Below, one piece after another: positions 12,801 to 53,700 of a stretch of DNA of 64,000 nucleotides; within the stretch, counting starts at the first letter, position 1, and each line of letters opens with the position of its first letter. The DNA is taken from positions 17,741,290 to 17,805,289 of the forward strand of contig OX031061.1 in the NCBI GenBank assembly GCA_943736015.1, in the 5' to 3' direction. The translations under genes were made by a program, and so were the position numbers. The notes beneath the pieces were generated by a model that saw only the letters and a list, made by a program, of their open reading frames with translations, ran no database searches and was not told the DNA's origin. Source of the stretch: Tridacna crocea (taxonomy: Eukaryota; Mollusca; Bivalvia; Cardiida; Cardiidae).

Positions 12801-15800
12801 TCACATATTTCCTTAACCGTTTACCCCATGAGGCATTTCTATGGTATCTCTAATTGTCCCTAAATAACAACAAGGATGAGGCCGTTTCTTATGTGTATAT
12901 AACACCTTTTGATAGCATAGAAAACATTGTGACAAAAGGTGAAATTGCTCGTCACAAGCAATTTCACCATCTGCCACAATGTTTTCCAAAGGCTCCTACA
13001 AGCAATGTATAGAAATGAGTATCTATGGAGTAAAGGGTTAACAAACCATGAAGTTGACAAGAACATAATTTACATTCTTGTCTTTTATTTCCTTCTGGGG
13101 AGGTCTGCTGGCAAAAAGCAAACATACACACACAAAAATTAGGTTTCAAAAAAGCAAATACAATGTGTTTCTACATACCCAGTCTAATATTGCTTAACAC
13201 AAAATATGCAATGTAGAAAGGCAATATCACAATCAGTAAGAACAATATTACAAACAGGTTCAACTTCCAGTGAAAGAATCTTGAACTGGAAAAGAAAAGA
13301 AAATAACAATATTGAGTGCTAAGTTAAGAACAATTTAGAGAGCTCAAGATACAAACATACTTGTAGGGATGATCATATGCAAAGATAGAATTAAGAAATT
13401 ATCTTCTTTCTATCGTAGTTCATCGTTCAATAAATCACAGTTGTGAGTTATGAGGCACAATAAATAATCCATGAAGGTGATAGCCTGAGTGTTTTGTTCA
13501 TTGTGTCTCATAACTCACAATGTAGTTAATGAATGATAAACCATGATAGAAAGATTATTTCAATTCTAATATTACCAGCTCTTCATGGAAGGAAAACAAG
13601 TTCACACTTAGAGTAAAAACATGGATGCAGATTATATTCCACTGAATTACTTATCTTTTTAATAGACAATGCCGTCACTCTATATAGAATGACGTACATT
13701 TTACCAACCTTTTGTTGCACTGTGTTTATAGAGGCAAACTTGTGTGTCATGTTAGAATGCACCGTAAGTTCTTCATTCAATCAGTTTTTGTGGGTACTTA
13801 TCCAAACTGTCTTCACAACAAACTTACAAAGTGTAGTTGTGTACTTAGCCACTTACCACAACCACACAATTCCCATTTCTAACATACCTGAAAACATTGT
13901 GGGAAAAGGACAGAATGCTGGGAATACCCATAATCTTTTCTACTCTATTAGAAACAATCGATCCCATTGGCCACACTTAATTGTCATCTACAAATCGTTG
14001 GTTTACATCAAAAACCTCGTAACTACAGCTTGAAACAAGCTGTAGTTACAAGGTTTTTGAAGTAAACCGACAAAATCCTTTCCATTTGAACAAGTCCAAA
14101 GTATAGCTGCCTGGTAAAGAGTTAACTTCTCATCACTCCTTAATATTTTAGGCTCATCAAAATTGAAAGGCATTGTAACGTGCAACGACCTGGTAACCCA
14201 TCCAGGCACTAACCTAATGCACGTTGCTTAACTGTCACGGAGAGAACTACACCAAACCGCATCGCTGTAAAAGCTAGCTCAAAAAGGTAGCTCAACAGCA
14301 AGGCTGGTTTTAAGTGCTTATATATCTAACCTCTCTCCGTGACATTACTCCCCCCTTCGACAAGTCTCGACCCCGAGACTGATATACAAGCATGTATATA
14401 CAAATAAACCAGGGGAATATACATGGGCAAGGCAACTCCAGTCCGGCAGTTGTCATTATCCCACCACTGCCACCAAATGTAACGTGCAACGACCTGGTCA
14501 CCCATCCAGGTACTAACCTAATGCACGTTGCTTAACTGTCACGGAGAGAAACGCACTAAACCGCATCGCTGTAACAGCTAGCTCAACAGCAAGGCAGGTT
14601 TCAAGTGCTTATATATATCTAACCTCTCTCCGTGACATTATTGCAGAAAACAAATAAGGACTGCCTCAAATGATAAAATTTATCTCTCAAAATATGATAT
14701 CCACTTCTTGAGAATTGTAACTTTTAATCATAATAAAGTACACCAGCTTTTGGTGGAACAACCGCCTTCTTCTAGTGTGATCCTATGATACAATTCCTGC
14801 AGTAATGCCTGCAGGCATTGTATCACAGGATAACACTAGAAGAAGGCGGTTGTACTGCCGAAAGCTTGTGTACATTATTTCTCAAAAGATAGAGCAAGCA
14901 TTTTCTCCTTTTCTCACAATGTTTTTAAAAGCTTTACCCATTATGGTTGTTAAAACTTGGGGCTGCCTGGTAAAGGCTTAAACAAACAAACAGCTTACCT
15001 TGAATCCATAAATCCAATGATTTCAAATATAATCAAAATAAACATGGTGCAGGAGAGAGCAAAGTTTGTTGAAAAGGCCAATAAGACACCAGAGTGATGT
15101 ACCTACAAAATACAACAGCAAATCTTTCATGCTACGAAATCAAAAACAACTCTCACTTATCACTGTCACACAGTGGAAACAAGCAGACAAATATTTTCGT
15201 CTTGCTGCAGACATTTCATAGAAATAATGGTTTGAGGTAATGGGAGAAATCAATTAATGCTTTACCAAACAATCCCTGCTTTTTATGGACCTAAGATAGA
15301 AGCCTATTGAAAACATTGTGGGAAAAGGAGAAAATGCTGGTAAACAGCATTTTCTCCTTTTGCCAAAATGTTTTCTACTCTCCCAATGTCAAAATTCAAC
15401 TTTCATGTGAAGTTTATCTTGTCGTCAGCAAATGCTTTCACTTTTGACCAGTCTAAGATTTTGTCATTTGGTAAAGAGTTAAGAGAAGCAGTTTCTCCTT
15501 ATCCCTTTGGCAAACAGCAATAATTGAAGCCTGTCCAAATTGAAAGAATTTGTAGACAATAAATAGAACATGGTTCAGAAGTTCAGTTTTGTCTCTGGAT
15601 GGGAAGGAAATATTTTTCGGAAAATGCAATGTCTCTTTTTCCCATCATGTTTTCAAAAGGTTTCTTTTTCACGGCTGCTAAAACATGGGATTGTTTGGTA
15701 AAAAGCTGGTACTGATCAGGTAACAGAATGTTTTAAGAGTCGACTGCTGCATTTGAACTATGTTTCAAAAAAGGCGCTTTAATGCATCTCAGCAATATCT

Positions 15801-44700: not shown

Positions 44701-47700
44701 TATAACCATTAGGTCCTGAGTTTGATACCCGGGAGCTGGTATCAACTTTAGGATTTTTCATTGGCCCACATGTGCGATGCGAGTACTGGTGTAGTTCCCT
44801 GGAAGCAGAATTGTGAGAGATTAGTATAATTTGTTAGAACTTGTTTCTCAATCGTTGTAAAATAAAATTGTTTAAATTAAACTGAATATAAGTCATGAAA
44901 TGGATTAGAACAAGTCTTAAAACCATTGGAGCCTTGATCTGGGAAAAAGGAGCTTAATACAGTTGTGAAAAGTATTGATGCTGGTCAACACTGGCTGACC
45001 TAGGCCGAAACGTTATACTTTTGGTCAAAGGACCAGTATACCTCACAATACGTCAGGTTGTTGCACAAAACAGATCTGGGGAATGAAGAATGACTATCTT
45101 GGTATCCTGTATCATGAGGATGCTTTAAGCTCCCTTTTGCCATTGCATGGTTCATTTGTAAATATAGTCTATGGAATAAAGATTACAGAGCTCCAGATTA
45201 GAGGGAGTGATGAATTCTAAATCCATTATTTCTCTTCCAAACCCTATGTTGTGGGTACTCATTAGAATCGTCTTGAGATACCTGAGATAAGGTAAATATG
45301 TAATTTCTAAGACTCATGCTTGCATTTTACCCATATGTTCCATTTCCTTCTCCTGCATTATTTTTTACATATTTGGGTTGTTACAGAGGAAACAGATCCC
45401 AAGATGACCTGTGACCTTGAAAACCTTCCTGATGACCTTAAAGAGGTTGTGACTTTTGACAACAGACTGTTCAGTGAGGAGATAGAGAAGTGGGATAAGG
45501 AACAAGCCAGGAAAGCTGCAGGGGGCGGGGATACGGGTGTGACTGTGATAGATGATACAAAACCTGCAAAACCTGGTAACTATCTTTCTTATTCAGTGGG
45601 AATGTTTTTGTAATATGCAACAACCTGGTCACCCATCCAGGCACTAAAATAGGTATTTATGGTACCCATATCACATAATGCCAGTGATCAGAGACTGGAG
45701 ACACACATGATAATGCGACTAAATGCTCCAACTTTTGGTTGTTAGTAAATGGTGTGTGGTTGATGGAGTAGCATTGGTTGGTGTGTATGGATATATAGTG
45801 TCTAATTAGACATGGCTTTAATTTGCCTGGTAACAGTCGCCCATAATAGTTAGACACACCATCAGATATAATCAAATTCAAGGTTATACTAAGTATCTCA
45901 TCAGTAACTTCTGATGGCTATCCTTAAATTTGTAATAGTCTGTCATTAGAAGTGTGATTAACAATAAGCATGTTGACCCCACAGACCTCAAACTGAAGTG
46001 CAGAAGCAGTGACCAATGTTGTTGTGAAAGTGTTATGTTTTTGTTTTAAACCAGATGGTTAACTGAAAGCATCAAATTAACCATATATCAAATATGGCAG
46101 ATAAAGGGGTCATTAGACAATTGTTACACATAATAAACCCTTAAAATTTTCTGTGTCATCTTTGTTTATATCTAGTATCTAAATAATGTGAACAACTAGG
46201 AATGCTTGAATTATCCCCCCCCCCCCAAAAGTCTGATTTTTCGTTTTCATTCTGAATACCAAATTACCAATGTAGTTGTAAATTGATAAATGGATGTATG
46301 ATCGAGTACTCATTAATTAAGTAATTGTTCTCATCCCTAAGAATAATGCCAAAATCAGAGTACAACACTATGCAGTCAACAAGTTAATAGTTCAAATTAT
46401 CAATAAACTTGTTCTGATGATTCTGTGAAAATGATAATGGTTTCATTGAAAAGAATATGCTTTACATTTTAGACTAGAAATATTCATATGTTTTCAAAGA
46501 TGGAGGAATTTTTCATTAATATCAATTTCTACACATTTGATAATCATATAGCATTAAAATTCTGATAATTGCATTGGAAAAGAGTTTACAATGTCAAGGC
46601 TTATCAACTTTTTTGCAAATTTTTTGCAGCACTGGTAACTGGGAGCTCAAGTTCTGTTTCAACCCAAACTACTCAGTCAAAGCCTTGGAACCCAGCCTCC
46701 ATACATGCTCACATTTCCTTTGCCGAGAGTTGGGCTGCACTGAAGTTAGCAGCCGACTCTGAAGCATTTGCAAAGAATAGTTTAGAGGAAGCTCTGAATA
46801 TTGTAAGAATTTAAACCTGTGATTTATAACCAAAGTTTGGATGTTGTAAAAAATTAGCCCATTACCACACAAGCTCTACTTTTGATGCCTCCGAGACAGC
46901 AGCCTTTAGAAAATATTTTGGGAAAAGGAGAAAATGCTGGTAACAAGCATTTTCTCCTTTTCCCAAAATGTTTTGTACCATTCACAAAACAAATTTCAAT
47001 TTTTCAGTCACTTTTATTTTGTCGTCTGCAAATGCATTTATTTGGACAAACCTGAATTTTTGTCATTTGGTAATGAGTTAATGAAAAAGCAATATCTTTC
47101 CAACCTGATCTTTAGCTTTAAAACCATTGTAAAGTTTTTCTGCATCATACAGGTTGATATTATTCAATAGAAGGAACATAACTGAGGTTTGCTGGACCAG
47201 TCATTGAAATGTGCAAGTTATTCCCTTGCCATACATAAATATGTAGGGCTTACCCTTGAATTATTCTTGTCGACTTTAACCTTTAATTTAATTTCTATTT
47301 GACAGAAACATTTTCTCTTACTCTAAAGTAATTGTTGTTGAAATTTGTCACAAACATACCCAATTTCTGTATGTAGCTAAGAAAGAAGTAAAAAGTTTTG
47401 TTTGTGTTAATCTTTGTGGTAATAAGAAAGCTTTCAGCGTCTTGTAAAATTTTACTGAACAATTGGGGGTAAAAGAAAAAAATGCTTGTTACTGGCATTA
47501 TCTTCTTTTCTGACATATTTTTTCTGGCTCTTAACCCTTTACCACACAATCCCTACTTTTGACGCCCCTGAGAAAGAGGCCTTTTGAAAACACTGTGGGA
47601 AAAGGAGAAAATGCTGGTAACCAGCATTTTCTCCTTTTCCCACAGTGTTTTCTACCCTTTCCAAATTAAATTTCCATTTTTCAGTCGCATTTATTTTGTC

Positions 47701-50700: not shown

Positions 50701-53700
50701 TTTTTAAAAGGCTTCTTTTTCAGGGTTGTTAAAAGTTATGATTTTGTGGTATAGGGTTAATATTAAGTGCTTCAAACTATAAACTATAAAATGAAAATGA
50801 TGAATTTGTCATCCACCCTATCAAACTCCAATTGCTTTATTATGCCCCCCTTTCGAAGAAATGGGGGTATATTGCTTTGCACTTGTCGGTCGGTCCGTCG
50901 GTCGGTCGGTCGGTCTGTAGACCAAGTTTGTTCGGAGCATAACTCAAAAACTATTTCAGGTATCATCTTGAAACTTCATAGGTGGATAGATCTCATTAAG
51001 GAGAAGTGCAGTGCACAAGAACCATAACTCTGCCCATCATATTTTTGGAGTTATTGGCCTTTGTTGATTTTCATAGTTAATTTTTGTCCGGAGCATAACT
51101 CAAAAAGTATTTCAGGTATCATCTTGAAACTACATAGGTGGATAGATCTCATTAAGGAGAAGTGCACTGCACAAGAACAACAACTCTGCCCATCATATTT
51201 TTGGAGTTATTGCCCTTTGTTGATTTTCATACTTAATTTTTGTCTGGAGCATAACTCAAAAACTGTTTCAGGTATCACCTTGAAACCTTATATGTGAAAA
51301 GATCTTATTAAGGAGAAGTGCAGTGCACAAGAACCATAACTCTGCCCATCATATTTTTGGAGTTATTGCTCTTTGTTGATTTTCAGACTTAATTTTTGTC
51401 CGGAGCATAACTCAAAAAGTATTTCAGGTATCATCTTGAAACTACATAGGTGGATAGATCTCATTAAGGAGAAGTGCAGTGCACAAGAACAACAACTCTG
51501 CCCATCATATTTATGGAGTTATTGCCCTTTGTTGATTTTCATACTTAATTTTTGTCCGGAGCATAACTCTAAAAGTATTTCAGGTATTATCTTAAAACCT
51601 CATAGGTGGATAGATCTTACTAAGGAGAAGTGCAGTGCACAAGTACCATAACTCTGACCATCATATTTTTGGAGTTATTGCCATTTGTTGATTTTCATAG
51701 TTAATTTTTGTCTGGAGCATAACTCAAAAAGTATTTCAGGTATCACCTTGAAACCTCATAGGTGGATTAATCTTATTAAGGAGAAGTGCAGTGCACAAGA
51801 ACCATAACTCTGCCCATTATATTTTTGGAGCTTTTGCCCTTTGTTGATTTTCATAGTTAATTTTTGTCCAGAGCATAACTCAAAAGGTTTTTTAGGTATC
51901 ATCTTGAAACTTTATATGTGGATAGATCTTATTGAGGAGAAGTGCATTGCACAAGAACCATAACTCTGCCCATTATATTCTTGCAATTGCTGTCCTTTGT
52001 TGATTTTCGTACTTATTTTTTTTCCGGAGCATAACTCAAAAAGTATGTGAGGTAAAATCATGAAACTTTAAAAGTTGATAGTTCACATAAATGGGAAGTA
52101 CAGTGCCCAAGAATTGTTAATTTATCATTAATAATTTTTGAGTAATTACCCTTTGTTCGTTTTTACACTTTGAACGTAAGAGTTTATAATCACATTGGAT
52201 GCCATGGGGGGGCATACATGTTTTACAAACATCTCTTGTTTATATCCCATCTGACCATTTTACTTAGGTGGTAAATACAATGCCTGCAATGTAAAATAAA
52301 ACTAATTTCAAAACCTTTTGCCTGTGTTTATGCTTCCAGTTTGCCGATATTTGTAGACAAATACCATAATTATCACATTTGCTTTATTATTATCCCCCGC
52401 CGTAGGCGGAAGGATATAGTTTTATTATCCCCCGCTGTAGGCGGAGGTATATAGTTTTAGCGTTGTCCGTCCGTCCTTCCATCCGTCCGTCCGTCCGTGT
52501 GTCCGTCCCGGCAAATATCTCCAATACCATTGGACGGAATTTCGTGAAACTTTATACACATGTACAATGACCCATTCTCCCGAGACAGTTTTTTTGTTTT
52601 TTTGATTCGACGCAAAATGGCTGACTGAGAGCGATTTTAAGTTTCACTTAAGTAACACTTAAGTACACTTTTGATGTTTGGAGTCTTCTCTTCAAAACTA
52701 TACAAAGTTTTTACATTGAACTTGTCTCATCTGTCAACCTCCATTAGGAAATGCAGGAAAAGAAGTTTTACTTACGTTGACTGTGCAATACCACAGTTAT
52801 TTGCCCTTGTTTGTGTAATAAGGTGTCATGGAAAAAGGGGGTTTCATGTTATATTTCATTCCATTTCTTGTGAAGGCAACTCCTTCCACATTTCTTGAAG
52901 GAATTGAATGCAATTTTGACAGAATATTTTTTATCATGTGACCTATTGCATATTGTCAACATTTTGCGATTTGTAGCTGCGTCATGAAAAAAGGGGGCTT
53001 CATGTTTTATTTCATTCTATTTCTTGTGAATGCAACTCGTCCTATATTTCTTGACAGAATTGAAATGAATTTTCACAGATTGTTTCTCATCATTTGACCT
53101 ATTGCATATTCTCAAAGTTTTACTATTTGTAGCTGCGTCATGAAAAAAGGGGGCTTCATGTTTTATATCATTTTATATCTTGTGAATGCAACTCATCCCA
53201 TATTTCTGGACAGAAATGAATAGAATTTTCACAGAATGTTTCTTGTCATCTGACCTATCACATATTCTCAATGTTTTGCAGTTTGTGGCTGCGTCATGAA
53301 AAAAGGGGGCTTCATGTTTTATTTCATTCTATTTCTTGTGAAGGCAACTCCTCCCACATTTGGCAGATTTGAATGGAATTTTTACATTATCATGTGACCT
53401 AACACAATGCCTCCCACATTTCTTGGCAGATTTGGATGATCATGTGACCTACGGCATATTGTCAAGATTTTGGGATTTGTAGCAGCATCATGGAATAAGG
53501 GGGCTTCATGTTATAATTTAATTTTTCACCTGTATCTCTTTAATTACTTGACATATCTCAACAGATTTGGATGAGATTTTCACAGATCATGCAACCTAGC
53601 ACATGTTGTCAGGGTTTTGCAATTTATCACTGTATCATGGAAAAAGGGGACTTCATGTCAAATTTAATTTTTTATCAGTGTATCTCCAACTTTTACACAT

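Follow-up and report, generated by a model that had tools for sequence, protein, structure and literature searches.

Can a retroelement with long terminal repeats (LTRs) replicate in an animal from a promoter derived from the 5S rRNA gene? The question is raised by a 464-nt element on the minus strand at positions 14174..14637 of a 64,000-nt stretch of the genome of the giant clam Tridacna crocea (contig OX031061.1, positions 17,741,290 to 17,805,289), hereafter the window. The first-pass annotation, made from the letters alone, had described it as a terminal-repeat retrotransposon in miniature (TRIM) whose LTRs contain three blocks of a 5S promoter, and had likened it to the plant element Cassandra. 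We find a TRIM with a 5S-derived LTR block in a mollusc, the host being a bivalve. Our best explanation is that the element is probably an old copy of a T. crocea TRIM family, which would have been moved by helper enzymes and whose LTR promoter would be a rebuilt 5S promoter used by RNA polymerase III (Pol III).

The coordinates, the LTR lengths of 160 and 171 nt, the TG...CA ends and the polypurine tract are as that annotation had them. The parts of the window copy are listed below from its 5' end to its 3' end (IE, intermediate element; ORF, open reading frame; T4 and T5, runs of four and five T).

14174..14637, minus strand: whole TRIM copy, decayed, 464 nt
14478..14637, minus strand: 5' LTR, 160 nt, with ends TGTCACGG...CGTTACA
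14608..14617, minus strand: TATA-like box TATATATAAG of the 5' LTR, at about -31 to -22 of the predicted Pol III start
14573..14576, minus strand: site of the conserved T4 run in the 5' LTR, which reads TGTT in this copy and is thus lost
14496..14536, minus strand: 5S-like block of the 5' LTR, 41 nt, with the start of box A, IE and most of box C
14458..14475, minus strand: primer binding site TGGTGGCAGTGGTGGGAT, 2 nt past the 5' LTR, matching 17/18 to the 3' end of a clam tRNA-Leu plus CCA
14345..14477, minus strand: internal domain, 133 nt, without a long ORF
14345..14357, minus strand: polypurine tract AAGGGGGGAGTAA, directly before the 3' LTR
14174..14344, minus strand: 3' LTR, 171 nt (usual length in the family, 158 nt)
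14317..14324, minus strand: TATA-like box TATATAAG of the 3' LTR
14281..14285, minus strand: T5 run of the 3' LTR, at about the position of the predicted Pol III terminator
14269-14272, minus strand: second run, T4, of the 3' LTR
14192..14232, minus strand: 5S-like block of the 3' LTR

A TRIM family dispersed in the clam genome

We searched the T. crocea assembly (1,048,827,098 bases in 31 contigs, C1-C18 measuring 40-77 Mb and C19-C31 14-57 kb) with the whole element and found at least 48 matches, of which 45 extend along the full or nearly the full element (best 40 scored of 777 candidates). Contig C31 is mitochondrial, and its nad5 shows 99% identity over 98% to that of T. crocea. Our sample consists of 40 loci, 39 fetched with their flanks plus the window copy, and provides 83 full LTRs and 43 internal domains; these loci are the copies most similar to the window element and not a random sample. 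The family usually has an LTR of 158 nt, an internal domain of 133 nt and a total length of 449 nt, with totals of 441-464 nt in the 35 loci with two LTRs. The longest ORF starting with methionine spans 38-88 amino acids (36 loci) and proteins for mobilisation are absent, which places the family among the TRIMs. Three loci (L014, L018 and L029) are tandem arrays with 3, 4 and 3 full LTRs, respectively, and a unit of ~290 nt.

The copies bear the marks of LTR-type integration. Target duplications were assessed in the 36 of the 40 loci with both outer ends intact in BLAST alignments (L038, L039, L042 and L044 were dropped). An exact 4-bp duplication is present at 27 of the 36, compared with 4-bp identity in 16 of 1260 mismatched flank pairs, and duplications of 3, 5 or 6 bp were found at 0 of the 36 loci each. 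Seven of the nine loci lacking an exact 4-bp duplication still agree in the first three of the four bases (our own reading), the remaining two being L035 and the window copy. In six of these seven near misses, the base adjoining the 5' LTR is an A, as it is before the 3' LTR in the polypurine tract. At six loci (e.g., L026 and L019) the A takes the place of the fourth duplication base next to the 5' LTR, and L086 has an extra ATAA; such bases look like those that precede the 3' LTR and could be ends of the plus-strand primer that were left untrimmed when the element integrated.

A pattern for the 3' end of tRNA-Leu has seven exact matches in the clam genome, five with CCCACCGCTGCCA and two with CCCACCTCTGCCA, and ARAGORN calls all seven loci tRNA-Leu (anticodon AAG in five, TAG in two). 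With CCA added, these ends predict two primer sites, one or the other of which is matched at 18/18 in 32 of the 43 internal domains (20 of the T type and 12 of the G type); the 17/18 match claimed for the window copy was recovered. The primer site and the polypurine tract lie at the two ends of the internal domain, and the TG...CA ends are sharp and common to the dispersed copies. Genome-wide copies thus share boundaries, primer site and polypurine tract, which together with the 4-bp duplications bears out the original reading of the two repeats as LTRs.

Counted by pattern, the 5S-like core has 444 matches genome-wide with up to two mismatches and the primer site with its leader has 156 with up to one mismatch; the reversed control pattern for the core and the control for the primer site gave 0 matches each. 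On contig C16, at ~29.3-43.1 Mb (L074-L085), 10 of the 12 TRIM places fetched have a similar 3' flank by eye, so that they probably go back to a single insertion copied along with a larger duplication, and the figure of 444 overstates the number of insertions. Single full LTRs (solo LTRs) were seen, by our own criterion, at 3 of 16 fetched core-match places, with a 4-bp duplication at one of these three. A 25-nt piece of the 5S-like core had 0 matches in viral contigs. "Small RNA" repeats have been annotated over 3.13% of the T. crocea genome (PMC11700175).

The divergence K of the LTR pairs ranges from 0 to 0.10 (35 two-LTR loci). At 1.1e-8 per site per generation and 10 years per generation, as used for T. 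maxima (PMC11700175), the pairs would be between 0 and about 47 million years old and the window copy about 27, with gene conversion ignored. LTRs are closer within an element than between elements (median 0.038 vs 0.057), and the youngest pair, that of L032, consists of two identical LTRs.

The 5S-derived block and its promoter geometry

Both LTRs of the window copy contain GTTAAGCAACGTGCATTAGGTTAGT(A/G)CCTGGATGGGT(G/T)ACC, which is similar to the 5S internal control region. Aligned by Smith-Waterman to the clam's own 5S gene, the 5' LTR scores 52 over 5S positions 29-92, whereas 5000 dinucleotide shuffles of this LTR gave a mean of 15.8 (sd 2.1) and a maximum of 29; the 3' LTR scores 43. A blastn comparison within the window gave E values of 8.8e-7 and 4.6e-4, with a match covering 5S positions 50-92. 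The proposed similarity to the species' own 5S gene is therefore significant, and the three blocks hold up against that gene, spanning 41 nt in the LTR and 42 in the 5S gene. What the LTR keeps of 5S comprises the initial 12 nt of box A, the IE region and, from box C, TGGATGGGTGACC. The second block, given as GGTTAGTACC, is indeed present, but it carries one mismatch to the local 5S gene, which reads GGTTAGTACT. Across the family, GTTAAGC, GGTTAGT and TGGATGGGTGACC are all intact in 52 of the 83 LTRs, including both LTRs of L032.

The alignment to the Rfam 5S model that the first-pass annotation had proposed as a check gave no support. RF00001 has no match to the window element at E<=10, nor to any of the 18 of the 39 other loci that were run through cmscan; genuine 5S genes of the clam reach scores of up to 119 bits. 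An LTR that matches the local 5S gene but not RF00001 indicates that the promoter was kept and the rRNA fold was not. No Rfam match reaches the gathering score anywhere in the window, and the remaining weak matches, mostly to microRNA models and short of the respective cut-offs, we attribute to chance or to palindromes in the flanks, which occur near some TRIM copies. In the window, palindromes at 13997-14071, 14732-14879 and other places have 87-92% complementarity and loops of 3-6 nt. A 158-nt LTR of the family folds into a long hairpin (-56.3 kcal/mol; inverted repeats 1-13/87-99 and 107-114/148-155). We rejected a conserved LTR fold as evidence: pair-keeping double changes occur in 4 of 28 pairs, in 1-2 rows each of 82 distinct LTR rows, and are outnumbered by one-sided changes and mismatches.

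The clam's 5S genes provide a ruler for the rest of the promoter. Their matches form two clusters, on C1 at ~5.22-5.27 Mb and on C3 at ~72.12-72.15 Mb (best 47 of 19,100 candidates), and 28 upstream sequences show an AT-rich box at about -31 to -22. By eye, this box reads TATAAATAG in 11 of the 28, AATAAATAG in 3, TTTAAAAG in 12 and TTTTAACTG in 2. Two or more kinds of upstream spacer, among them one like TATAAATAG and one like TTTAAAAG, occur in each of three stretches of 5S array (L058-L060). The 5S genes of another bivalve, Donax, have a TATA-like box near -28 (PMC6204057). In the TRIM family, a TATA-like box is present in 78 of the 83 LTRs, and the distance from its end to box A is 71 nt in 52 of the 58 LTRs readable by pattern (25 of the 83 being unreadable). 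The same distance measures 72, 73 and 72 nt in three clam 5S upstream sequences. Transferring the 5S start to the LTR predicts a +1 at about LTR position 50.

A T4 run lies within LTR positions 53-70 in 80 of the 83 LTRs and falls at +11 to +14 of the predicted Pol III start in 59 of the 65 LTRs measured. Past LTR position 70 and up to the end of the internal domain, a further T4 occurs in only 6 of 43 units. The polyadenylation signals AATAAA and ATTAAA are found in 0 of the 83 LTRs and 0 of the 43 internal domains. Altogether, the spacing of the boxes, the position of the T4 run and the lack of AATAAA and ATTAAA fit a Pol III unit that runs from the 5' LTR to the 3' LTR, with a terminal repeat (R) of 12-14 nt.

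Elsewhere in the window, a 39-nt fragment at 45609-45647 (minus strand) matches the 3' end of the TRIM LTR at 90% identity, part of box C included. It directly follows a likely exon, and the remaining LTR was not found at that place. ORFs at ~25490-45613 (plus strand) resemble, by eye and with no family search made, exons of a ubiquitin-specific protease of the USP25/28 type. The window also holds a dispersed repeat of ~240 nt with many occurrences and, by self-comparison, a tandem array at 50927-52170 with a unit of ~156 nt.

Pol III or Pol II

How would such an element replicate? We infer, as in Cassandra, transcription by Pol III from the 5' LTR to the T4 run of the 3' LTR. TFIIIA would be the first to bind box A, IE and box C of the 5' LTR, with TFIIIC and TFIIIB following; these factors and the TATA-like box ~30 nt upstream of the start would together set that start near LTR position 50-53. 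From there Pol III would continue past the end of the 5' LTR and the tRNA-Leu primer site, cross the internal domain and terminate in the 3' LTR, at its T4 run (about +11 to +14). The product would be an RNA of ~300 nt with an R of only ~12-14 nt. Minus-strand DNA would be primed by tRNA-Leu, the short R would permit strand transfer, and the plus strand would be primed by the polypurine tract. A helper integrase, acting in trans, would insert the DNA, with the 4-bp duplication as the result.

Several observations weigh against this proposal. The 5S likeness is incomplete: the spacer between box A and IE is not retained and has 1 nt fewer than its 5S counterpart, the end of box C is missing, and at least one of the three 5S motifs is not intact in 31 of the 83 LTRs. 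Mean identity to the majority letter is 0.967 in the 5S block and 0.964 in the rest of the LTR (83 LTRs), so that the block is as variable as the remaining LTR and shows no sign of selection within the family; equal variability is what dead copies of one family would be expected to show. The upstream box is TATA-like, by eye, in only part of the clam 5S genes. As a terminator T4 is minimal, and Pol III would encounter the same run right after the start, in the 5' LTR; T4 runs number 1.09 per unit against 1.65 in shuffled sequence, a weak depletion. Weaker variants of the polyadenylation signal occur in the 83 LTRs (ACTAAA 8, AGTAAA 1, TATAAA 1, AATATA 1) and in the 43 internal domains (GATAAA 3, AATACA 1).

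Other points concern the copies and their mobilisation. The window copy has no target duplication, its flanks being ATAA and ATGC; this, the 5' LTR without T4 and the 3' LTR of 171 nt against mostly 158 are signs of its decay. The LTR nearest to a given LTR is its own partner at just 11 of the 36 loci with two LTRs, a pattern that suggests recombination or conversion between copies. A helper element was not found among the 4 atypical copies fetched of the 156 primer-site-plus-leader matches. All four have matches to the LTR and to the internal domain of the TRIM, those in L098 covering just 39 nt of the LTR, and their 5S-like block is recognisable, with changes.

Some of these points would sit well with an ordinary TRIM transcribed by RNA polymerase II (Pol II), in which Pol II starts at about LTR position 50, driven by the TATA-like box, and the 5S block is no more than a harmless remnant of 5S or SINE3 sequence once inserted there. 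The box is present in nearly all LTRs, the 5S block is conserved no better than its surroundings, and some copies have the weak polyadenylation-signal variants. A precedent exists in Asteraceae TRIMs that share part of the Cassandra internal region and have TATA boxes but no 5S promoter (PMC10853983). Nevertheless, the TATA-like box as a mark of Pol II is only one option, because it sits where bivalve 5S genes carry a TATA-like box of their own (PMC6204057). An ordinary Pol II element would also leave unexplained why its TATA-to-box-A spacing comes within 1-2 nt of that of the measured clam 5S genes, why no LTR has AATAAA or ATTAAA, and why the three 5S motifs are intact in both identical LTRs of L032, and the T4 run at +11 to +14 would be without a role. 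We therefore regard it as unlikely.

A dual promoter, as proposed in the first-pass annotation, with a shared start region from which Pol III makes the short element RNA and Pol II accounts for read-through or for effects on host genes, seems to us less likely again. The start sites predicted from the TATA-like box and from the 5S block nearly coincide, as such a promoter would have it, but AATAAA and ATTAAA were not found in the copies examined. Moreover, bivalve 5S genes bear a TATA-like box, and we know of no use of these genes by Pol II.

That the locus is no LTR element at all, and that a SINE3 (a 5S-headed short interspersed element) or a tandemly duplicated 5S pseudogene mimics one, is scarcely credible: the arrays with their ~290-nt unit and the many C16 copies with similar flanks, probably spread by a larger duplication, would suit it, but the 4-bp duplications (27/36) and the 18/18 tRNA-Leu primer sites (32/43) refute it for the family, and the polypurine tract, the sharp TG...CA ends and the lack of an RF00001 score also speak against it.

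Relation to known 5S-bearing and small-RNA-promoter elements

The Pol III-driven TRIM that we propose has a close counterpart, so that the idea of an element new to animals does not stand. Ajax is a group of TRIMs from the nemerteans Notospermus geniculatus and Lineus longissimus (Kojima, 2024; PMC10886601). As described there, the 5S portion of their LTR is confined to the promoter (box A, IE and box C), with no 5S fold; these elements use a tRNA-Leu primer and measure 421-434 bp, compared with mostly ~449 nt in the clam family. Ajax comes from another phylum and has 5-bp target duplications (PMC10886601), whereas those of the clam family are of 4 bp in 27 of 36 loci and of 5 bp in 0 of 36; because of this difference, drawn from the published description, we did not file the clam family as Ajax. 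The clam family would work like Ajax and falls under the proposed class TRIMp3, since its LTRs contain the Pol III promoter sequence of a small RNA gene, which Pol III would use.

We tentatively put forward, as something close to an even call, a more general view of the clam family. It would be an animal LTR retroelement that has rebuilt the entire 5S promoter in its LTR, from the TATA-like box at -30 through the start to box A, IE and box C, and that terminates its transcript at a T4 run 11-14 nt past the start. This Pol III transcript, ~300 nt long and with an R of only 12-14 nt, would enter tRNA-primed, LTR-type reverse transcription. Together with Ajax, it would represent either one old spiralian lineage or repeated convergence.

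Cassandra is likewise a TRIM with a 5S-derived Pol III promoter in its LTR and with tandem arrays (PMC7215508, PMC10886601). Its transcripts are described as starting at the 5S sequence in the 5' LTR and ending at the one in the 3' LTR, with a terminal repeat of 18 bp (PMC10886601), and the 12-14 nt predicted for the clam family would be similarly short. Cassandra differs in that it contains 5S RNA sequence, measures 565-860 bp and is found in plants and ferns, while the clam family has the promoter part only and lives in a bivalve; the two are likely of independent origin.

Other families share single traits. Helenus, a TRIMp3 group that includes elements of pteriomorphian bivalves, has a small-RNA-gene promoter in its LTR and 4-bp duplications in animals, but its LTR is tRNA-derived and the primers given for bivalves are Lys, His, Ile, Pro, Glu or Ser, not Leu (PMC10886601). 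ARAGORN found no tRNA gene in the window, where no search aimed at a degenerate box A/B was made. biv-TRIM (Satovic, 2019; PMC6934838) is a bivalve TRIM whose hosts include the cockle C. edule, also of the Cardiidae; it has no typical primer site, its published text contains neither "polymerase III" nor "5S rRNA" (PMC6934838), and its conserved internal 14-mer is present in 0 of the 43 clam internal domains. SINE3 elements have a 5S-derived internal promoter in common with the clam family; they are without LTRs, primer site and polypurine tract and are moved by long interspersed elements (cf. PMC10886601).

Among the matches listed in a search of the open-licence PubMed Central literature, with Repbase outside its scope, no paper described a 5S-bearing LTR element from a mollusc. 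The clam element is real and well formed. It apparently represents a new family and extends to another phylum a type of element so far described from plants and nemerteans. Molluscs thereby become the third host group in which a 5S-type Pol III promoter is combined with an LTR life cycle, a case that bears on whether such elements arise repeatedly. The family also gives annotators reason for caution, as the clam genome holds hundreds of 5S-like core matches besides its 5S genes. Furthermore, it offers a concrete design, with start, stop, R length and primer, for asking how an LTR element replicates from a Pol III transcript. With its evidence from geometry, terminator and primer, the Pol III reading of the clam family is more specific than the one given in the Ajax sections of Kojima (2024; PMC10886601).

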